A DNA stretch of 64,000 nt from the NCBI RefSeq assembly GCF_001940235.1, contig NZ_MJIE01000001.1, forward strand, positions 930,001 to 994,000, read 5' to 3'. The translations under genes were made by a program, and so were the position numbers. The notes under the pieces are model-generated. The model saw only the letters and a list, made by a program, of their open reading frames with translations. It searched no databases and had not been told where the DNA came from. Every line of letters begins with the position of its first letter. The first letter of the stretch is position 1. Source of the stretch: Hornefia porci. Lineage in GTDB: Bacteria > Bacillota > Clostridia > Peptostreptococcales > Anaerovoracaceae. Below, piece by piece: positions 1,705-14,604 of this stretch.

Positions 1705-3397
1705 CACTGAAACCTCAAATTTAACGTATATATGAATCCTGCTAAATTACGTACATAATAAGGCTTCCAGATCAATGCATAGCTCTATAGTGCCTGAAAT
1801 ACTGGCTTTGCGCAATATTTTGTATTCGAAACCCTTGATTTAGCACTACATATCTGGTACACTTATTACGTAATTAACGTATATATTCGAGGTACCAAAA
1901 TGAGCATTCCGCAATCGATCAAGGAGAAAAAGCCTGCACAATTCGGAGCGGTGGAGATCCGCCGATTCGGTGACGACAAATATTATGTCTACCAGATCTC
2001 ATCCAAATGGGATCCCGAAAAGAACCGTCCGAAGAAGGTAACTGGCAAAAGCATTGGCAAGATCACCGAGGCTGACGGGTTCATCCCTAATGCCAACGGA
2101 CTGAGGCTGATGGCAAAGATGCACATCGCCCCTGATGTGGCACCAGTAGTAAAGAACTATGGCGCATATGAGTTGATGCAGCAGCTCTCTCCTGATCTCA
2201 GTGATCAGATCAAGACATTCTTCCCGAACATGTTCCGGGAGATAAGAACGATCTCACTGATCAGACTCGTGGACAGGGTCTCGTCTGCAAAGATGATCCA
2301 GCCGGTTTTCCTTGACTCATATATGAGTGACATTTGCGGGGACATCGCAGCATCTGAGACATCCGTGCGCAGATTCGTTTCTAAGCTTGGCACCATGCAG
2401 GATACCATCGATGCATTCATGAGGTCCCGTGTCATGCCGAGCACGACTCTGCTGTTTGACGGCACTTCGATCTTCTCAAGGTCGCAGGACTCGCTGGCGG
2501 TCAAAGGATACAATCCTGATCACAGCCGGAACACTCAGGCTCGCATGCTGTATGTTTTTGAGAAGGATACTCACATGCCGGTCTTCTACCGCATTCTTCA
2601 GGGATCGATAGTTGACAAGACGGCATTCATCGATACGGTAAAGGCGTCCGGGTGCAGGGACTGCATCATCATTGCAGATAAGGGTTTCTACTCAAAGAGG
2701 AACCTTTCTGTGCTGATGGAGGCTGGGATGAAATATATCCTGCCTCTGCAGGACAACACCGTGAATGTTGAAAATTCCTTCTATGAAGACAAAGACGACA
2801 ACAAATTCGATGATGTGTTTTCCTACAACCACAGGCCTGTCTGGTACCGAAAGAAATCCAGCGGTAACAAGGGCAACTTCATATACACGTTCCGTGACGA
2901 CATACGCAAGGCAGAGCTTGTCGAACGCTATGTGGTCAAGGCTGAGAATGACTACGGCGAAGAAGACCGTAAGCCAAAAGATGTCCTCAAGCAGATCCGT
3001 ATGGGATACTTCTCATTCTGCAGCAATCTCGACGTGGAGCCGCAGGAGATATATCTTGCGTACAAGCAGCGCTGGGATATTGAGCAGTGCTTCGATTACC
3101 TGAAGAACAGCGTCATCTGTTCTGCATCTCATGCACGCACAGATGATTACTTCCGTGGCTGGGCGTTCCTGAACCATATAAGCCTGTTGTATTATTATGG
3201 CTTGCTCAATGCACTCAGAAGCACCGGGCTTGACGAACGCTATTCAGCCGAGGATGTCCTGAAGCTGGTAAAGAACATCTACAAAGTCGATGCCGGCGAT
3301 GCCGAAGGGTACCGCGTTTCAGCTATCCAGAAGAAGACTCATCGTGTGCTGAACACACTCGGAGTCGACCTATTACGTGAAAACTAATGTTTCAGTG
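1705..3397 (+). mobile_element. Complete IS4-superfamily insertion sequence (1,693 bp) inside hsdR
   Basis: The element starts with CACTGAAAC and ends with GTTTCAGTG, a perfect 9-bp terminal inverted repeat that continues imperfectly to about 25 bp (inner shared block ACGTA). Six-base direct repeats TTTTAA flank it. It carries one transposase gene with the IS4-type Y-R-E-K signature; IS1634-like relatives are the best guess for the group. A likely promoter, TTGATT - 17 bp - TACACT (1835-1863), sits before the transposase. The transposase stop lies within 10 bases of the right terminal repeat, a compact layout usual for ISs. Ends, duplication and open gene are all intact, so the insertion looks recent. 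Confidence 0.9.
1900..3387 (+). CDS. IS4/IS1634-like DDE transposase
   Basis: The 495-residue protein has a DDE catalytic core. I see candidate Asp at about residue 187 (LLFDGTS), Asp at about 260 (IIADKGF) and the IS4 signature Y388-x2-R391-x3-E395-x6-K402 (YKQRWDIEQCFDYLK). The N-terminal 100 residues would bind the terminal repeats. ATG at 1900 is the first start after the promoter; the ribosome site is weak (CGAGGT 7-8 bases upstream). The reading frame is uninterrupted and of normal length for the group, so the enzyme may be active. Confidence 0.92.
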   Translation: MSIPQSIKEKKPAQFGAVEIRRFGDDKYYVYQISSKWDPEKNRPKKVTGKSIGKITEADGFIPNANGLRLMAKMHIAPDVAPVVKNYGAYELMQQLSPDLSDQIKTFFPNMFREIRTISLIRLVDRVSSAKMIQPVFLDSYMSDICGDIAASETSVRRFVSKLGTMQDTIDAFMRSRVMPSTTLLFDGTSIFSRSQDSLAVKGYNPDHSRNTQARMLYVFEKDTHMPVFYRILQGSIVDKTAFIDTVKASGCRDCIIIADKGFYSKRNLSVLMEAGMKYILPLQDNTVNVENSFYEDKDDNKFDDVFSYNHRPVWYRKKSSGNKGNFIYTFRDDIRKAELVERYVVKAENDYGEEDRKPKDVLKQIRMGYFSFCSNLDVEPQEIYLAYKQRWDIEQCFDYLKNSVICSASHARTDDYFRGWAFLNHISLLYYYGLLNALRSTGLDERYSAEDVLKLVKNIYKVDAGDAEGYRVSAIQKKTHRVLNTLGVDLLREN

Positions 3398-4043: not shown

Positions 4044-5545
4044 ATCAAAGGATTCTTTTTTCCGATTGCGTTCAGCGTTCCAAACAGCTGAATCGTGTCG
4101 GGCTTCGGCGTAGCGGTGAATGCAATCATAGAAACGTTGCTCTGCTTACCGCTTTTCTGGATTTCTTCGAGCATTTTATCTTCTTCAGTCTTGTCATCAC
4201 CGTCGCCATCGCTTTCTTCATTCGTCAAAACGCTTGTGACAGACTGCATGTAGACACCTTCCGTGGAAGAATGTGCCTCATCGATCAGGACAGCAAATTT
4301 CTTGTCTTTCAGATTGCCCAGAAGGTTGTTGTTCAGGATATAGTAAAATTTGTGGATCGTGGTTACGATAATCTTCGTATTACCGCCCAGCGCGCTCGCC
4401 AGATCCTCGGAGTCACACTTGTCGTCCATAACTTTTACCTGACCGCTTTTGTGCTCGATTCCGAGGATAGCCTCCTGCAGCTGGCGGTCAACCACGATAC
4501 GATCTGTAATGACAAGCACAGAGTCAAAAACATTCTGATTCGCATCATCGTGAACCGTCGCAAGAATATGTGCCAGCCATGAGATAGTTTCCGTCTTGCC
4601 GCTGCCTGCGGAATGCTCGATCAGATAGTTGCAGGACGTATGGTTGATAATCACATCATTCATCACGCGCTCCACGGCTCTGAGCTGGTGGAAGCGAGGG
4701 AAGATGAGTTCCTTGGCCTTCTTGATTTTTCCGGTGTCCGGATTCCTGCGCTCTTTCTTCTTAATGTAAATGAAGCGCTCGATCAGGAACAGGATATTAT
4801 CTTTCGTCCAGATTTTCTCCCACATATAGGAGACATTGATGCCATTTTCGTTATGCGGATTTCCCTTACCGAAATTCTCGCCGATGTTGAATGGATTGAA
4901 AAATGTGTCTGCTCCTTTAAGCTCGGTAGTGAAGTATACCTCATTCAGATCCATCGCAAACGCAGCGAACACTCCGACGCGCGTCTTGAACAGTCTGGTT
5001 GAGGCATCACGCTCTTCCTTATACTGCCGGATCGCATCGTCGACTGACTGCCCGGAAGTATTGCACTTCAGCTCAACGGCAAAAATGGCGAGCCCATTCA
5101 AAAACAGAACCAGATCAATGCGCTCGTCGTCCTTGTGGTAGACTTCCTGCATGACTGAGAAGATGTTCTTCTTATAGTTCTCGACGGCTTCCGTATTGAT
5201 CGTGCTGTCCGGCTTGCGGTACATCAGCTTAAGAGTTGCGCCATTGTCGAACTCCACGCCGTGCTTGATGACGTCGATCAGGCCACGGCTGTCCTTGTTG
5301 ATTTCGGAATTGATGTAATTGATGATCGTCTCTTCCGTGCGATTCTTATACATCCGGCGGAGCAGATCCATCGTATCCGACTGCGTGTCCTCGAGGAATT
5401 CCAGCAGCACTTCCGTATCCATAGCAAGGCCGGGCTTATACGCTGTGTTCGGGCGCTCCCGGAAGTGATTATTATCCTGGAGCTGATCGATAATTAGCCT
5501 CTGATAATCTTCCTTCTCTTTTAACTGGTCGGCTCTGATTGGCAT
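4031..5545 (-). pseudogene. hsdR: hsdR 5' fragment (nuclease and first helicase lobe)
   Basis: The true N-terminus of HsdR: ATG at 5545, one base after the hsdS stop. It has the PD-ExK nuclease core (Asp near 144, then E158-L-K160), a Walker A GSGKT at 314-318, DEAH at 422-425 and the TAT motif (AFTATPKP). HsdR cuts DNA after ATP-driven translocation in an HsdR2M2S1 complex. The frame ends early (GKKNPLICTP then stop) because the run before 4065 holds six A where seven would keep the frame. The local sequence is A-AAA-AAG in frame, which is also a classic -1 slippery heptamer. The IS further on makes the gene dead either way. Confidence 0.88.
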
Positions 5546-6037: not shown

Positions 6038-6052
6038 AAGGAGTTGATTTTT

Positions 6053-7636
6053 ATGCCAGTACCAGCTGAAATCAGAGCGGTCCCCCGGCCAGTCAATACC
6101 GTTGTAGATGACAACGGTGGGGATGGCCCCAAACGCTATGCTGTCCGGCAGCGAGGATCCTCGAAATACGTTCCCGGCGGCAACCCGCAGCCAAAAAACG
6201 GCAAGGTTATCGGTCACATTATTGACTACAAGTTTGTTCCTCTCCCCGAAAAGGATCCGGGTGCAGACTTGCCGGACATGTTGTCCTACGGAGCATCTGC
6301 TCTGGTCAAGTCTGTGACTGCAGACCTTAAGGAGGATCTGCTTGCGGTATACGACGCATCCGATGTCTATGCAATGATGTCTCTGGCTACCCTCCGGGTT
6401 ATCAAGCCAGCCATTACAGCGGATCGAGCGCGGACGCATTACCTCAGGACGTTCGTATGCAAAGATTATCCCGGTGCAGCCATGTCCAGGAATTCCATCG
6501 GCAGTCTGCTTCAGCGGATCGGGATGAACGGATCCAGACGAAGACAGTTCTACCAGTTGCGAATGAAGGCAACGGCTGCCGACCATCACATTGCCATCGA
6601 CGGGATGCTGAAGCAGGACAACAGCAAGGTCAATGACCTGTCTGCGTACTCCCGCAAGGCAAAAGTGCGCGGCATCTGCGAGGTATCCGTCCTGTATGCC
6701 TACGACATTGAACGGATGGAGCCGGTGTGCGCTGAGGTCTTCCCCGGCAACAGCATCGATGCTAGCAGTTATCCGGCGTTCATCCGTGACAATGACATCC
6801 GCAAAGGGATCATTGTCGCTGACAAGGGATTCCCACCAAGCAAGATCAAGGAGGAACTACAGGAACGTCCGGATCTGCACTTCCTCACACCGATCAAGCG
6901 CAATGACACACGTATATCGAGCAATGACATGCTCGCTTTCGAAGGCGTGCTGTCCGGCATCGATGCCCATGTGGTCTACAAGAAGAAGCAGATCAAGGGT
7001 GGCCGATACCTGTATGCCTTCAAGGATGCCAGGAAGGCATCCGCCGAAGAAGCCTCGTATCTGGCGAATGCTCAGAAGAAAGGAACCTTCTCTCCTGAGA
7101 AATATGCTAGGAAGCAGGCAACTTTCGGAGTGATCGTTCTTGAATCCGATCAGGATCTGGAACCAAAAGCCGCATACCTCTGTTACGAAGACCGCTGGCT
7201 TTTGGAGATGGTCTTCAATCGGTACAAGAGCGATGAATGCCTGGACCACACCGATGTTCAGGGAGACTTCTCCGTCATCGGCAGCGAATTCATCAATTTC
7301 ATATCAACGGTTGCCACCTGTCGGATTATCCGCAAGGCCCAGAACGCAGGATTACTCGAGAAGATATCCTACGGCGAGCTGATGGATGACCTGGCATCTG
7401 CCTGGCGAAAGGCAGATGCTCCGGAGGAGCCGGCGACTGATGATGGCTATTGGGTTCACACGTTGCAACTCGTATTCGATGAGCTTGAAGCACTCGGTCT
7501 GGCAAGGCCTGTGCCGAAACCGGCACCGAAGAAGCGTGGGCGTAAACCCAAGCCCAAGGATGAAACCGAGCCGAAACCTAAGCGCAAGCGCGGTCGTCCC
7601 CGGAAGGATTCAACCCCGTCTGCCGGTACTGTATAG
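6053..7636 (+). CDS. IS4/IS1634-like transposase with AT-hook-like tail
   Basis: I choose ATG at 6053, nine bases after AGGAG, over an upstream TTG at 6044 that abuts the ribosome site. The 527-residue protein has candidate catalytic Asp at about 183 (IAIDGML) and 257 (IVADKGF) and the signature Y378-x2-R381-x3-E385-x6-K392 (YEDRWLLEMVFNRYK). The last 40 residues are almost only K, R, P and acidic residues, with KKRGRKPKPK and KRKRGRPRKD, which match AT-hook cores (RGRP/RGRK). Such a tail would contact A/T-rich minor groove; its role in transposition is not known to me. The frame is intact. Confidence 0.88.
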   Translation: MPVPAEIRAVPRPVNTVVDDNGGDGPKRYAVRQRGSSKYVPGGNPQPKNGKVIGHIIDYKFVPLPEKDPGADLPDMLSYGASALVKSVTADLKEDLLAVYDASDVYAMMSLATLRVIKPAITADRARTHYLRTFVCKDYPGAAMSRNSIGSLLQRIGMNGSRRRQFYQLRMKATAADHHIAIDGMLKQDNSKVNDLSAYSRKAKVRGICEVSVLYAYDIERMEPVCAEVFPGNSIDASSYPAFIRDNDIRKGIIVADKGFPPSKIKEELQERPDLHFLTPIKRNDTRISSNDMLAFEGVLSGIDAHVVYKKKQIKGGRYLYAFKDARKASAEEASYLANAQKKGTFSPEKYARKQATFGVIVLESDQDLEPKAAYLCYEDRWLLEMVFNRYKSDECLDHTDVQGDFSVIGSEFINFISTVATCRIIRKAQNAGLLEKISYGELMDDLASAWRKADAPEEPATDDGYWVHTLQLVFDELEALGLARPVPKPAPKKRGRKPKPKDETEPKPKRKRGRPRKDSTPSAGTV

Positions 7637-7751: not shown

Positions 7752-8423
7752 TCACTTTTTCGTTGTATTTTCCTTACCGGCTAATTCCTCGATCCGTTCG
7801 TCAAACCTCTTGATCTTGTCTACGAGATACTCGTAAGTGATCAGATATTCTGACAGTGTTTCCTTATCCAGACCTTCCAGTTCCAGATTCCTGAGCCACT
7901 TTACATGTGCTATCGTCCAGTAGGTTTTCCCGCCTTCAAAGCGTTTCCCCTTCCTGAGTACGAATGACAGTATCTGCTGCTTGATCTTCTTCAGCATCAG
8001 CTTCTGATCGTCTCTCATCCGGATATATTCCTTGATGGATACATCTTCTTCATCCGGAACATAGACCTCACTGTATGTTCGGAATGCCAGGCATCTGGCT
8101 ATGTTCGCCGCGTCACGTCGATCTGTCTTTACACGGTTTGTGTTAGTGATCGCCATCGTTGTCGGTGCCAGAATCCTGCACTCTACTGCATGAGCCTTAA
8201 GCTGATTGTAGAGTGAATATCCCAGGCATCCCGCCTCGTAGCCGCAGACGAATCTCACTTCACTTTCATATCTTTCACGGATGCGTTCCATATATTTGAG
8301 GATCATTCTGTAATCCGCAGGAATCGTCTGTTTGTACTCGACCTTATTGCGGTCATAGGTGTAACAGCATAAAGTGTAACTTTCCTTATGGACACCCATT
8401 TCAACATAAACTATAGTATTCAT
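7752..8423 (-). pseudogene. IS110-family transposase, truncated, with altered first catalytic Asp
   Basis: The 223 residues match the N-terminal DEDD (RuvC-like) domain of IS110 transposases: VEMGVHKES at the start, CGYEAGCLGYSL (Glu), and KTDRRDAANIARCLA (Asp pair). Family members read V-G-M-D-V-H-K at the first site; here the catalytic Asp is Gly. The C-terminal Transposase_20 domain with its active Ser is absent: normal length is about 400 residues, and this frame ends after the coiled-coil linker (RIEELAGKENTTKK). ATG at 8423 follows AGGAGG. The protein should be inactive on two counts. It sits against the 3' end of the DUF5688 gene. Confidence 0.85.
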
Positions 8424-9478: not shown

Positions 9479-9581
9479 TCCTCTTCCCTTCCTTTCTCAG
9501 AATCTGCGCAATGCACTCTGTGATCTCGCGGAGCCTTTTCTTCTGCTCCTCTGTCTGTTTCATTCTGTTGATTTCCTCCAT
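9465..9581 (-). CDS. Small charged protein (38 aa) upstream of DUF5688
   Basis: Starts at ATG 9581 after GGAAAGGAGACAGG and encodes a mostly helical, highly charged peptide (MEEINRMKQTEEQKKRLREI...). Its stop lies inside the next gene's start region, so the two frames overlap by 14 bases. It is too short to assign. The good ribosome site and the overlap favour a real gene or a translation-coupling leader. Confidence 0.5.
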   Translation of the reverse strand: MEEINRMKQTEEQKKRLREITECIAQILRKEGKRNEQH

Positions 9582-9625
9582 GAATCCTGTCTCCTTTCCT
9601 CTTCCATAGGTTTTCATGATTTTGC

Positions 9626-10462
9626 CTAAAGTCCGAGCATCTCCTGGACGACCCGGTCGCTCATCTTGACTGCCCCGACGAGTACCAGCATGTTAAAGGC
9701 CAGTTCACCGATATACTTCCATACCATCGCAGCCGGCGCGGCATCCGTATCCACCACCGGCGGGCTTGATGCGAACAGACTGAATATGATACAGGCCCGT
9801 ACGATGATCGCTCCTTCCATGCATACCGCCAGGTATGATTTCAGAAAGCTCTTTCCGATGTTCTGCGTCGGCTGTCCGACAAAGGTTGCAAGCGGTATTG
9901 GGGCGATGGCGGTGTACATATACAGCCTGAAAAACCTTCCATAGACCGTCAGTATGATGATGAAGGACATCACTGTGATGAAAAGACTGCCGATCAGTGT
10001 CACCGCCCACAGCGGGATGCTCTCAAAGAATCCGCAGTCTTCGATCGACTTGATCATCTCATTCGGCAGAGTCACTTTCTGTGCGCTTCCGATCCCTGCA
10101 GTCCGCATGATAGAGCTCATCATACCTTGTACAATCTAGAAGATTGCGAGCATCAGCTGCAGTCCGTACGTAACTACACCCTTGGCAATGGCAAAGCGCA
10201 GGAACAGTTTCAGAGCATGCTCGGGTCTTTTGATCTCGCCGAGATTGGCACTGGTCTTGACCACACCTGCCAGGAAAAACAGCACCAGCAGCGCCAGTCC
10301 CACCGCCTGCAGTGCACCATTGATATTCAGGATCACATGCCAGATGCCGCCTCCCTTGAACTTCTCAGGTGACATGGTGAGAAGCTGCCAGACTTCTGCC
10401 AGCTTCTCGTTCCATGTCGTCAGGGCATTCATCAGGTTCTGTACTACCCAGTTATCTGACAC
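9626..10462 (-). pseudogene. VirB6/TrbL-like conjugation membrane protein, split by an amber codon
   Basis: Two consecutive frames (10136-10462, then 9626-10135) are in the same reading frame and separated only by TAG at 10136-10138. Read through, the protein is about 277 residues: an N-terminal helix, hydrophobic segments (VGLALLVLFFLAGVV; LWAVTLIGSLFITVMSFIIILT; GELAFNMLVLVGAV) and the loop RLYMYTAIAPIPLATF. This is the polytopic channel component of Gram-positive type IV secretion, as in Tn1549-like elements. CAG to TAG (Gln before IVQG) would explain the stop. The start is GTG at 10462, overlapping the preceding small gene. Confidence 0.82.
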
Positions 10463-10545
10463 TTATCTCTGCCTCCCTTCCGGCAACTGCTGATAATAAC
10501 GAATGCTCCGGCGCATGCTAGAGCTGCTGCAAGTAACTTCTTCAT
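10444..10545 (-). CDS. Small lipoprotein-like peptide (33 aa) in conjugation operon
   Basis: ATG at 10545 follows GGAGGTG with good spacing. The peptide begins MKKLLAAALACAGAFVII, a signal-sequence-like start, then ISSC, an acceptable lipobox, then a short basic tail (RKGGRDK). Its stop overlaps the VirB6-like start by 19 bases. Small membrane proteins are common at this position in such elements. I cannot assign it to a named family. Confidence 0.55.
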   Translation of the reverse strand: MKKLLAAALACAGAFVIISSCRKGGRDKCQITG

Positions 10546-10564
10546 GTGGTTTCACCTCCGATCT

Positions 10565-10621
10565 CCCTGAATCAGGACATAATAAAAGACCGGTCAGCGT
10601 ATTTGCCAACCGGCCATGTAA
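10565..10621. repeat. 57-bp direct repeat, copy A (left of ATPase module)
   Basis: Starts CCCTGAATCAGGACATAATA and ends GGCCATGTAA. It matches 12138-12194 at 53 of 57 positions. An internal inverted repeat (CCGGT...ACCGG) can fold, and on the minus strand the hairpin is followed by CTTTTATT, so each copy may also act as a terminator. Copy A lies directly upstream of the ribosome site of the small lipoprotein-like gene. Confidence 0.85.
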
Positions 10622-10646
10622 TATATAAGTCAGGATGCTCTATTGA

Positions 10647-11984
10647 TTATTTCACAACGAAAGGCGCCAGATATAACGGCTTTTTCCGAAGGCTGCCTTC
10701 TTCACCAACATCCTTTTGCGACAGCAGATAAGTAGAATCCACATTACCTGAATACTTCCTTGTGAACTCAGTGATCGATTCATGCTTTCCGATTCCCGAT
10801 GACTTCACCTCTATCGCAGAGACCTTACTCCCTTTTGAGATCAGAAAGTCGACCTCATAATAATGAGTACTGTTCGGTTTTTCCCACGTATGATAATACA
10901 GTTCCCGACCTGAAGAATTGATCATCTGTGCAACAAGATTCTCATATAAGAACCCAAGATTAGCTGGAAGCTTATCCGACAGAAGCTTTGAATATAGCAC
11001 ATTTTCGACTGAAGGTCTGTCCAGGAACATAGCAGTCACGAACAAGCCTGTGTCCGACAGATACAGCTTATAGCTATCAAAATCCTTAGTATCCGTCAGG
11101 CTGACCCTGGGATCAGTTGAATTGTAACACGGTATGATTGTCCTGGAATCTATCAGCTCGTAGAGCAGTTCTTCAGCCCTGGTATTGCCTCTCTTGCCAA
11201 TGGCAGAATTTATCCTGTACTTTCTGGCATCTTTTGCTAACTGTGCCGGAATAGCGTGATACATAGAAGAAATCCTTCCCGACGGATCGATTTTCCTGAA
11301 GTCATCTTCATACAGCTGAATGATCTGCCGCTTCACCTGATCGATGTCGGAAAAATTATTACCTGCAAGATAAGATTCTACTGCCTGCGGCATGCCGCCG
11401 ACCGCCATATAGAGTCTCAGATCCCGCATCAGCTTTCTGTTTGTTGCCTGCCCGATCGGTCTGTTCGTTTCATATATTTTTTCGAGCAGTGAATACTCAT
11501 ATCCTACAGCATCACAGAACTCCTCATAGTCCATCGGGTAGACCTGTATTTTCATCTCTTCTGACGGTATCAGAATGTCCTTTACATTCTTCCTGATCGA
11601 AATGAGAGATCCTGTTTCCAGGTAATGGTACCTTCCGTCCTTGACCAAATGCTTGATCGCCTGCCTGGCATTCGGAAACAATTGTACTTCATCAAATATA
11701 ATAAGGGATTCTCCCTTATACAGCGTTATGCCTGTCTCTGCCTGAAGTCTCAGAAAAAAAACATCCAGATTCCCAATATCATTAAAGCATTGTAATATAT
11801 TATCCGCATCCTTTGAAAAATCGATCAGAATATAGGATCTATATTCATTGCGGGCAAAATGCTCTGCAATAGTTGACTTGCCCACACGCCTTGCTCCCTC
11901 CAGCAGCACTGCGTACTGATCCGCATAATTCTGCTTCCATTCCAGAAGCCTTGGGTACACTTTTCTCTTGAATATCATACTCAT
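10647..11984 (-). CDS. AAA-type ATPase with DUF4143 C-terminal domain
   Basis: The 445-residue protein has Walker A GARRVGKST (about 30-38), Walker B SLIIFDEVQ (about 93-100), a sensor region (LETGSLISIRKN), and the C-terminal DUF4143 region with a PD-ExK-like patch (YEVDFLISKGSKVSAIEVKSS, residues about 380-400: D, E-x-K). This AAA_14/DUF4143 family is widespread in anaerobes and has no agreed function. ATG at 11984 follows GAGGAG. Four direct repeats precede it, and near-identical 57-bp sequences flank the whole unit, which splits a conjugation operon. It thus looks like an inserted single-gene module. Confidence 0.85.
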   Translation of the reverse strand: MSMIFKRKVYPRLLEWKQNYADQYAVLLEGARRVGKSTIAEHFARNEYRSYILIDFSKDADNILQCFNDIGNLDVFFLRLQAETGITLYKGESLIIFDEVQLFPNARQAIKHLVKDGRYHYLETGSLISIRKNVKDILIPSEEMKIQVYPMDYEEFCDAVGYEYSLLEKIYETNRPIGQATNRKLMRDLRLYMAVGGMPQAVESYLAGNNFSDIDQVKRQIIQLYEDDFRKIDPSGRISSMYHAIPAQLAKDARKYRINSAIGKRGNTRAEELLYELIDSRTIIPCYNSTDPRVSLTDTKDFDSYKLYLSDTGLFVTAMFLDRPSVENVLYSKLLSDKLPANLGFLYENLVAQMINSSGRELYYHTWEKPNSTHYYEVDFLISKGSKVSAIEVKSSGIGKHESITEFTRKYSGNVDSTYLLSQKDVGEEGSLRKKPLYLAPFVVK

Positions 11985-12018
11985 ATTCTCCTCTCTAACC
12001 TGATAGTATCACCGATTC

Positions 12019-12125
12019 TGCATTTCTTCAATCTTTATGTCCTATAAATTCTGCATTTCTTCAAAATTTTTCTCTTTATATGCATTTCTTCAAACTATTA
12101 ATCGCGCAATATATGCATTTCTTCA
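12019..12125. repeat. Four direct repeats (TGCATTTCTTCA) upstream of the ATPase gene
   Basis: Identical 12-mers begin at 12019, 12052, 12081 and 12114, with spacings 33, 29 and 33 bases, about three helical turns. On the minus strand each reads TGAAGAAATGCA, mostly preceded by TT. The copy nearest the gene supplies a possible -35 (TTGAAG), with TACTAT 17 bases further as -10. The array therefore looks like an operator that overlaps the ATPase promoter. Confidence 0.85.
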
Positions 12126-12137
12126 GAATTGGAACTC

Positions 12138-12194
12138 CCCTGAATCAGGACATAATAAAAGACCGATCAGTACATTTGCCAACCGGCCATGTAA
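12138..12194. repeat. 57-bp direct repeat, copy B (right of ATPase module)
   Basis: Second copy, 53 of 57 identical to 10565-10621. Differences are confined to the middle of the loop region. It follows the end of the VirB2-like gene, where in the undisturbed operon the small lipoprotein-like gene would be expected next. Confidence 0.85.
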
Positions 12195-12228
12195 CCGGCA
12201 GCATTGCTGCTGCCATGAGTATGGGCTC

Positions 12229-12569
12229 CTAACCTACGATCAGGTCCAGGATCTCTTTCGAAAAGTTATAATAATCCCGCCCGTCAGGGTCAGGAACCCG
12301 TTGGCGCGTTGTGACGAATCGTGGGACTTCAGCGACAAGCCGACCTGCACGATACCAAACCCCAGCAGGATCATGCCAATCGCTCTGATCAGACTGAAAA
12401 TGAATGTGGACAAATTATTAACCGTTGTGATCGGATCCCCTGCCGCAAATACCATCTGCACACCGAGGGTCACGGAACATACTATGCCGCCGTATATGAC
12501 CAGCATACGACAGCCTCTTCTCTCAAGTTTACTCATTTCTTCAAGCTCAGTTGTCTTACTCTTCTTCAT
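12229..12569 (-). pseudogene. VirB2/TrbC-like pilin-type membrane protein, frameshifted at 3' end
   Basis: ATG at 12569 follows GAGGAAG. After a charged N-terminus come two hydrophobic segments (VIYGGIVCSVTLGVQMVFAAG and FIFSLIRAIGMILLGFGIVQVGL), then LKSHDSSQRANGFLTLTGG, a block typical of the small TrbC/VirB2-like proteins of Firmicute conjugative elements. The current frame ends RKRSWT at 12240. In another frame the next codons give KEILDLIVG and a stop at 12229, the expected C-terminus. One base is missing near 12260. The protein may still fold because only about ten residues are lost. Confidence 0.75.
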
Positions 12570-12615
12570 AGATGTCTTCTTCCTCAGATTATTCGTATTA
12601 TTTAGCAATATCCTC

Positions 12616-13137
12616 TTACGACAGCAGCTCGTATCCTGCGCTGTCAATTCCTGCGGCATCGGCTGCATCCGCAAAGTCCGTTGTGAGCGAGATGGTGAAT
12701 TTGACATCTTTTGCTTCCCCGTGTATATACGGCTCCGCCCTGCCGTCCGATGTCATATCGATGTTCGGATGCTTCAACAGATCATACTTCAGATCTTTGA
12801 CCGGTCTTTCGCCTCTGATGAACAGCAGCGCAAACTGATTGTCAAGCATTCTGACCTCATCGGGTGTCATAAGCTCACGGCCTGTGATCTGATCGTTTTT
12901 GCTGTAATTGCCGTTCCTGCCAAAACTTCGCCCATAGGTATTCATGTCTATAGTCTCTTTGCCCAGCAGTTCCGAAATATACTTGTGTGTGCTCTGCTCG
13001 TTTCCGCCGAGATATACCCGTTCATCACAGTTGCCTGTGATCGACTCCCATTGTTTCTCGAACAAAGCCTTCAGCTGCGCCATGTTCTGCAGGATGATGC
13101 TGACGGAAACCTCTCTTGATCTGTTGAGCGACTTTAC
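12616..13137 (-). pseudogene. Coupling protein (VirD4/TraG-like T4CP), C-terminal fragment
   Basis: Open frame ends ...GYELLS. It contains RSREVSVSIILQNMAQLKAL, GNCDERVYLGGNEQSTHKY and LFIRGERPVKDLKYDLLKHP, which are conserved C-terminal blocks of the type IV coupling ATPase that brings DNA to the secretion channel. The Walker A and B domains and about two thirds of the protein are missing; a stop lies just upstream, near 13138. It is thus a left-over from a deletion whose breakpoint lies near 13115-13140. Confidence 0.8.
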
Positions 13138-13629
13138 TTAAACTGAAGTGCTAATTATTTCAGCTGTCCGGCGGTTTTATTTGAACTGAGAATCGACATC
13201 AGCTCCGCTGCTGCGAACACAGAAACCGGCATTTTGGAGCCCTTTCCCTTGTAAAATCAGTGTTTCGCATATTGTCGCATCCAATCGTATCATCAGGTTT
13301 TCATAGCATGTTTCCGGACCAATTCTACCCGTCATTTCCCAAGTTTTTCGAGAAATGACCACTCAATATTTTTTTATTATCAATCCGGCGTTTTATTAAA
13401 GTTGGGCCGCTGCCCGCTCCCCCAACTCAAATGCGACTGTTCTGATAAGATCCGATATCATCTTAAAGTCTTAAAGTACACTCGGAATATCCCTTTAGAA
13501 GACAGTTATCTCAGTTTACCAGATTCATTATCTTGCACGTGCTTCACCATCTACACTTGAAGTCGACATTTTCGTCTTCAAATTTTGATATTCACCTAAG
13601 CAAACCGTCTGCAAACCATAATACTGCTT
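13138..13629. other. Non-coding gap between coupling-protein stub and ORF6N gene
   Basis: About 490 bases with no gene I can support. The left part (13150-13240) looks like the end of a lost insertion sequence, with CCGGCGGTTTTAT near 13167 and a related CCGGCGTTTTATT near 13386, but I cannot define termini. A minus-strand frame of 61 codons (13177-13362) has no recognisable content. Confidence 0.4.
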
Positions 13630-14604
13630 TTATCTCAAAACCAGCGGTGGATTAGCCAGTGATTCTTTCACCGTCCGCTTATAGTCATCAATCTCCATTA
13701 GCCTTGTAATGGTCGTGATACGCTTGCCTGCGTCCTTACTGCTTGCTCCGCAATGATAAACCTTCATATTTGCGGTGCCGTTATCCAAAACGATGTATCT
13801 ATCATGCGCCCTCTTCTGCGACTGCAAGAAAGTCACAGTTTTCTTAGGGTATTCAGTGATGAAATCGTTATATTCTGCAAGCTTGAGGATCCGGTTCCTG
13901 TTGTCACTGATGATCGTCAGATCAACTCCTGCCTTTGCATGCACAAGGTGCTGAAGAGTCTTAACGCTGATGTAATCGTCAACTATAACAATAGACTTTT
14001 TCGCGCTGCGGTAGATCTTCTGATAAGCAACATCTGCCTTGAATGGCTGTCCGTCCAGAATCAGGATTTCCTCTGCGTCGATTCCCTGGTCGAAGTTCTT
14101 CATGAAGGCGGAGGGATCCGCTCTGGTGATCATGTTGTCTTTGATTTCCCTTACCTCACTCTCTAACAATGCCTGCTTTCCATATAGCCGGAACAAATCC
14201 TGCTCGGGTAATAGCCCTTGGTTTACAGAAATATACTGTCGCATGATTTTAAATGCTCGCATGATTGCAACGCTCTGCTGTTCTGCCAGCTCACCCTTCA
14301 GCACTGTTGCAAGTTGGTAAACGCCTTGTTCAGTAAACACATACGGAGGTTTTCTTCGACCGCCATGACTTGATGTTGAATTTTTCAACATCAAGTCATC
14401 ATACTCATCTTTTGTCAACTGGAACATGAAATCTTCCGGAAATCGGTTGGTGTTATGTTTCACCTGCAGATTTAGATATCTGGTTTCATATCCGTATATC
14501 TCAGCAAGATCACTGTCCAGCATGACCTGCTGTCCGCGGATCACATATATTTTATCTTTCAGTGATTGCTCATCGACAATCATGATCTCGTTCTTTTCAT
14601 CCAT
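13630..14604 (-). CDS. ORF6N-domain protein with phospholipase-D-like C-terminal region
   Basis: I choose ATG at 14604 (MDEKNEIMIVDEQ), six bases after AGGAGA, not the upstream ATG at 14685. Residues about 12-95 form an ORF6N (KilA-N-like) DNA-binding domain: IRGQQVMLDSDLAEIYG, VKHNTNRFPEDFMFQLT, YVFTEQGVYQLATVL. A helix follows. The C-terminal third (IVIVDDYISVKTLQHL ... RAHDRYIVLDNG ... YHCGASSKDAGKRI) resembles a single PLD-type half with an HxR variant in place of HxK. ORF6N proteins are common in phages and defence islands. Function is not established; nuclease activity is doubtful without the Lys. Confidence 0.75.
   Translation of the reverse strand: MDEKNEIMIVDEQSLKDKIYVIRGQQVMLDSDLAEIYGYETRYLNLQVKHNTNRFPEDFMFQLTKDEYDDLMLKNSTSSHGGRRKPPYVFTEQGVYQLATVLKGELAEQQSVAIMRAFKIMRQYISVNQGLLPEQDLFRLYGKQALLESEVREIKDNMITRADPSAFMKNFDQGIDAEEILILDGQPFKADVAYQKIYRSAKKSIVIVDDYISVKTLQHLVHAKAGVDLTIISDNRNRILKLAEYNDFITEYPKKTVTFLQSQKRAHDRYIVLDNGTANMKVYHCGASSKDAGKRITTITRLMEIDDYKRTVKESLANPPLVLR

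Follow-up and report, generated by a model that had tools for sequence, protein, structure and literature searches.

Within the window, as we call the whole 64,000-nucleotide stretch of DNA that was analysed, an ATPase gene forms a single-gene unit sited between a pilin-like and a VirB6-like open reading frame (Table 1). Profile searches matched its product to the Pfam domains AAA_14 (2.9e-22) and DUF4143 (2.4e-17), both above the curated cut-offs (79.5 versus 27 bits and 63.5 versus 28.1 bits, respectively). Over its whole length (residues 3-442) the protein matched the PADLOC profile PDLC04786 of the PDC-S01 family (1.1e-92), which we take to be COG1373. The Walker motifs and the nuclease-like motifs are invariant among 18 chosen members, with identity down to 26%. 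The latter comprise E348, D379 and E392-x-K394 (E...D...ExK, conserved in 18/18 relatives), a pattern of the PD-(D/E)XK nuclease superfamily. From these motifs, the ATPase carries a putative PD-(D/E)XK-like nuclease fold and a putative DNA-binding domain. A sequence search of the PDB gave no significant relative, and profile searches of the module found no known transposase or integrase domain or signature.

Upstream of the gene, the four 12-mers reported by the first-pass annotation are exact copies of TGAAGAAATGCA, spaced by 33, 29 and 33 bp, and no further exact copies are present in the window. The proximal copy likely holds the -35 element of the ATPase's own promoter. Gene and array are bracketed by two 57-bp repeats (copies A and B), whose positions and identity (53/57) were also correctly described; a search of the 2.8-Mb genome found no third copy. 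On the minus strand, which is the gene strand, copy A has a stem of 11 pairs with a U-run behind it (z -4.2), and the terminator-like fold of copy B is weaker (z -1.2). Judging from these folds, the two repeats are two copies of one putative intrinsic terminator. An Rfam search of positions 9500-13700 gave no match, and no inverted terminal repeats were seen around the module.

The unit is surrounded by type IV secretion genes, among which the TraG/VirD4 piece was recognised by profile, whereas the names pilin (VirB2-like) and VirB6-like are presumptive. The idea that the ATPase splits a conjugation operon holds as far as its place between these two open reading frames is concerned, but the surrounding transfer genes are decayed, with VirB6 in two pieces and TraG truncated. 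A neighbouring "lipoprotein-like gene" proved, by eye, to be merely a very short open reading frame overlapping virB6. Transposase-like open reading frames are also present in the decayed element (1900-3387, 6044-7636 and 7752-8423); one matches the IS110 family by profile, and the names of the first two are presumptive.

Table 1. Features of the ATPase module and its surroundings (positions in the window).
Feature	Position	Strand	Remarks
VirB6-like gene, two pieces	9626..10462 (9626-10123 + 10136-10462)	-	No Pfam match
57-bp repeat, copy A	10565..10621	-	Terminator-like, downstream of ATPase; first 38 bp equal the downstream copy in L116
AAA_14 + DUF4143 ATPase, PD-(D/E)XK-like motifs	10647..11984	-	445 aa, intact open frame; PADLOC PDC-S01
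Putative -10 hexamer TACTAT	12003..12008	-	17 nt after TTGAAG
12-mer TGAAGAAATGCA, proximal copy	12019..12030	-	Exact
Putative -35 hexamer TTGAAG	12026..12031	-	Overlaps proximal 12-mer
12-mer, second copy	12052..12063	-	Exact
12-mer, third copy	12081..12092	-	Exact
12-mer, distal copy	12114..12125	-	Exact; left edge of array
57-bp repeat, copy B	12138..12194	-	Terminator-like, upstream of array; forms the outer limit of the similarity to L116
Post-pilin hairpin GGCAGCAGCAATGCTGCC, then TTACATG	12197..12214	-	Similar hairpin and TACAT in several cargo-bearing slots
Pilin (VirB2-like) open reading frame	12240..12707	-	No Pfam match; C-terminus seems out of frame relative to relatives (by eye)
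TraG/VirD4 coupling protein, C-terminal piece	12616..13083	-	Profile match

The slot and the 57-bp repeats in related genomes

When the pilin 3' region and copy B were used as a query, matches were obtained in 41 of 349 family genomes, own genome included. Pilin and VirB6 homologies were found together at 14 related loci. At ten of these (L008, L009, L011, L019, L023, L028, L029, L031, L032 and L119, the last being a second element of the window's own genome) the two genes are 15-115 bp apart; at the other four (L007, L015, L024 and L117) the gap is 0.8-1.7 kb. Relatives of the element lack the ATPase unit. The 57-bp copy is absent from all 14, and the only pilin-slot locus with a copy was L116. 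Elsewhere the post-pilin stretch holds a Phd/ParE pair (L118), a GTPase (L117), an ADP-ribosylglycohydrolase (L116) or, at other loci, small genes. In this family of integrative and conjugative elements, a G+C-rich hairpin followed by TACAT opens the post-pilin cargo in the window, L007, L015, L017, L025, L026, L116, L117 and L118; L116 has a further exact 22-bp match, some 2 kb upstream of its module.

The same module is present in genome G180 (loci L054 and L116), where the unit, measured from the outside of copy B as far as the U-run of copy A (1611 bp), shows 96% identity. The Tsf of G180, only 51-60% identical to that of the window, is found some 3 kb upstream of the module, which is followed by an ORF6N gene and a pilin piece; because of these neighbours, the unit can be placed in the same chromosomal region in both genomes. 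Its position differs, being before ORF6N in G180 and after the pilin in the window, so that the single-gene unit is indeed found at different places. In G180 the gene that follows the pilin piece is that of the ADP-ribosylglycohydrolase, with no 57-bp copy, and since VirB6 was not found in the 14-kb stretch, the far side of the slot is out of view. At its other position the module is again bracketed by both 57-bp copies. Between the window and L116, the A copies differ at 0/38 positions and the B copies at 2/57, whereas A and B differ at 4/57 within the window; the simplest reading of these few differences would be that the 57-bp duplication predates the move of the module and belongs to it.

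The first-pass annotation had explained the repeats in another way, namely as a 57-bp target that was duplicated when the gene inserted into the transfer operon, or as a site of this length that was already there and served for entry. The bracketing of the module by two copies agrees with this, as does the finding that long direct repeats flank 7/75 relatives compared with 2/230 control genes (p=0.001). In three relatives of L105 its repeat occurs once, on the right-hand side (their left flanks were not comparable), which would fit a duplication. For the window site, this explanation appears to be already contradicted and we regard it as very improbable: both copies accompany the module in G180, the 14 loci with both flanking genes have zero copies rather than one, and none of the 349 family genomes (at most two candidates were scored in each) yielded a site with just one full-length copy. 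Among the candidates scored, full-length copies were found only in the window's genome (two) and G180 (one, with a second of 38 bp); G127 has a 23-base partial match. Related elements that always carry the ATPase, or empty sites with two 57-bp copies, had been named as findings that would speak against the proposal, and neither was seen. The 57-bp terminators would thus belong to the cargo and not to the target operon.

At other members of the family a long duplication may have occurred. In 120-bp windows, 2/64 loci exceeded all 600 cross-locus controls, and no general or regular target duplication was found around the family modules (64 loci; duplications of about 10 bp up). Of 11 genomes, none other than its own contained the flank of L048. 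The repeat at L036 was rejected as a target duplication, as it is dispersed in the genus and another gene occupies this position in genome G395; this gene, presumably DinD-like, stands in L169 (G395) where L036 has the ATPase module. Behind it lies a hairpin-rich stretch that the two loci have in common and that is also present at other sites in the genus. Flanking terminators were rejected as a general family feature, with no clear excess on the gene strand over the other strand either upstream (36/128 versus 23/128) or downstream (25/123 versus 23/123). Similarly, no orientation preference was found among neighbours, the next gene being on the same strand in 73/108 cases and the previous one in 82/120, compared with 115/155 elsewhere.

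The phased array in the PDC-S01 family

Repeats before the gene were sought in close relatives, at the 80 best-scoring of 220 confirmed loci, with chain steps of 27-37 or 60-70 bp allowed. At least one chained 12-mer precedes the gene in 74/80 and at least two in 68/80, and the chain steps are exactly 33 bp in 134/146. Under the same rule, shuffled regions gave at least one copy in 117/800 and at least two in 5/800, so that little weight can be given to a lone copy and much to a chain. Six of the 80 loci have no chain by the rule used; L110 has exact copies farther upstream.

The analysis was extended to 69 distant loci at 28-75% identity, consisting of 29 loci of a class-wide search (L183-L211; L183 duplicates a record already in the first set, L053) and 40 stretches chosen by going down the class-wide list, where 12 entries were skipped (late starts, short matches, contig edges). 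The strongest repeat lag is 31-34 bp in 45/69 and 61-68 bp in 10 more, leaving 14 with neither; shuffles gave 12/690 and 14/690. Other genes have a lag of 31-34 bp in 14/240, of which eight are neighbours on the same array and one is another family member. At least three phased copies were found in 46/69 distant relatives versus 1/345 shuffles. The copies within one distant locus agree at 85%, whereas agreement between loci is 57% at the best register, compared with 53% for shuffled partners; this comparison allows a register shift, and the between-locus value is 29% without it. The phase is therefore kept while the letters change in concert within a locus.

A period of 32-33 bp had also been found in 7/15 distant paralogs of a first sample. 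Among 13 named plasmid loci, the strongest lag is 32-33 bp in eight, 66 bp in three and none in two; these loci come from Bacillota, Bacteroidota, Fusobacteriota and Pseudomonadota, and the Treponema loci presumably add Spirochaetota as a fifth phylum. The 12-mer array as a family trait is new here, and in the portions available to us of the open-access literature no mention of repeats before a PDC-S01-family gene was found. In Vibrio plasmids, three 32-bp-phased copies are present in L292 and one in L291, as if contracted between repeats (by eye).

The putative -35 hexamer TTGAAG lies inside the proximal 12-mer at 67/74 loci, and a TATAAT-like box is located 17 nt after it for 44/74 proximal copies, the next best spacer being 14 nt (23/74); distal 12-mers also have TATAAT-like boxes, in 42/146 at 17 nt and in 80/146 at 20 nt. 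When the window was compared to L116, the four 12-mers showed 0/48 differences and the leader 0/34, versus 15/59 in the spacers (p 9e-5), and the ATPase coding sequence had a pN/pS of 0.06, which points to selection acting on both the ATPase protein and its array. A scan for repeat-protein covariation (54 loci) found no localised recognition region.

Distribution, edges and placement of the module

The family is patchily distributed, being present in 118/391 genomes of the class and in 235/397 of another family. No close relative of the ATPase was found in viral contigs, and relatives were found in 13/50,697 phage records, all labelled "Bacteriophage sp." from faecal samples, at 24-52% identity. 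PDC-S01 is reported to rank fourth in frequency among prokaryotic defences (PMC12988326) and, in a rumen genome survey, to occur more often than any other individual locus (PMC13356809), and the PADLOC phage defence candidates, PDC-S01 among them, are stated to be unvalidated (PMC12988326). The suggestion of a defence-type gene is supported by the profile match, and the ATPase can be regarded as a very common, unvalidated defence candidate.

The edges of the module were examined in pairs of loci sharing it at 85% identity or more. Such pairs numbered 47, of which five represented one record reached twice and 42 were used. In 34/42 the shared DNA ends within -14 to +27 bp of the stop codon; seven gut Lachnospiraceae loci, which form one group, account for half of the pairs (21/42). 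After grouping, 12/15 groups hold a pair ending near the stop codon, eight of them without other shared DNA in the fetched flanks; two of the 12 (L071/L077 and L096/L097) share their neighbourhood, and two more share a separate stretch. The three remaining groups are L092/L093 (+63), L036/L037 (+96) and L084/L101 (contig end). On the left, shared DNA ends at most 8 bp from the distal repeat in 9/14 pairs compared by hand; in the gut group, some pairs also share an upstream terminator, whereas in L265 the similarity breaks off immediately ahead of the array. To the left of the module in L184, L185 and L257 are fragments similar to the first part of a phosphatase gene, presumably of the low-molecular-weight type, and such a gene starts just right of it in L184 and L265.

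Two module copies in one Treponema assembly (L042 and L046) are 91.8% identical. In Bacteroides/Parabacteroides plasmids, the module is located where L295 and L297 carry a HipBA operon (24 plasmid records hold most of the L287 region). In L296 it begins 11 bp ahead of the first repeat and ends 5 bp past the stop codon, and an HTH gene remnant remains, which suggests that the module replaced the HipBA operon. The ATPase module of L296 and the HipBA operon of L297, each about 1.4 kb, occupy the same slot. In an Acinetobacter towneri plasmid (L300, about 1900-2000), CRISPR-like repeats, presumably of a type similar to I-F, adjoin the module. A Proteus mirabilis record (L299, about 4400-4453) contains the left flank of the Acinetobacter module, ending in one palindromic array-like repeat, and the adjoining sequence, fetched to 3 kb, bears no DNA similarity to the ATPase.

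These tight edges, at the left end of the array and at the stop codon, together with the invariant nuclease motifs, the two copies in one assembly and the apparent replacement of HipBA, are what could be expected if the module were a mobile element whose ATPase-nuclease drives insertion or target replacement. The classical traits of insertion sequences (terminal inverted repeats, regular target duplication, transposase) were not found, some pairs share more than the module (L092/L093, L036/L037 and several of the L184-L260 group), and selection on array and gene with loss of the flanks could mimic tight ends. We consider this explanation possible but rather doubtful. The edges and the replacement argue for self-mobility of the PDC-S01 module, and the lack of end repeats and of regular target duplication argues against it. 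In its widest form, PDC-S01 would be unrecognised single-gene mobile elements in which the phased array serves as both operator and left end, and the ATPase-nuclease, assembling on its own array, inserts or swaps the unit into cargo slots, sometimes with long duplications; we hold this to be speculative and unlikely.

A probable self-regulated cargo module and its comparison with known systems

In the explanation that we favour, and think probably correct, the unit is a PDC-S01 member that travels as cargo, with a single gene that regulates itself. At the level of sequence, its parts are an ATPase gene, phased 12-mers over the likely -35 element and a terminator-like hairpin on each side, and the module occupies a cargo slot between the pilin and VirB6 of a decayed conjugative element. 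Because the array is phased, locus-specific and overlaps the likely -35, it would most simply be an operator for the product of the gene itself. The ATPase protein, or an oligomer of it, may bind its own repeats cooperatively, since repeats about three helical turns apart would present the same face of the DNA; the bound protein would cover the -35 element and keep expression low. A trigger, which could be infection, incoming DNA or titration by other DNA, would lift repression, and the ATP-driven PD-(D/E)XK-like nuclease would then act. Repeat sequence and protein would drift together, each module recognising its own array, and transfer would be mostly passive, through conjugative elements, plasmids and recombination at cargo slots.

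Operators overlapping the -35 element are classically bound by separate repressors, and the array could accordingly be the site of a regulator encoded by the host or by the element, with the ATPase being an ordinary passenger gene. This we find improbable, as the array accompanies the gene in five phyla while its repeat differs from locus to locus. Moreover, three modules of genome G356 (L046, L146 and L149) bear different repeats, and such variation among the paralogs of a single genome makes it unlikely that one host regulator serves them all.

The conserved phased array with its locus-specific sequence suggests that PDC-S01 genes are self-controlled, and its presence before relatives in five phyla provides a handle on how the family is controlled. 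The array would offer a concrete DNA ligand for the biochemistry of PDC-S01 proteins, and the module edges a starting point for tests of defence, toxicity and mobility.

Compared to PDC-S01 as described, the window ATPase is similar in its whole-length profile match, its single gene and its patchy distribution. The description, in the part available to us, gives the occurrence of the family, and the phased promoter array and the unit boundaries are additions to it (PMC12988326). The module also resembles the iteron and operator arrays of auto-regulated DNA-binding proteins, in which, as here, short directed repeats in helical phase precede the gene for the presumed binding protein. In contrast to these, the gene product is an AAA ATPase that has a nuclease-like domain, and the repeat varies by locus while the phase stays. 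Finally, integrative and conjugative elements hold cargo slots with varied genes, and the post-pilin stretch likewise holds different genes in related elements; unlike the cargo of such slots, this one brings its own pair of terminator-like repeats.
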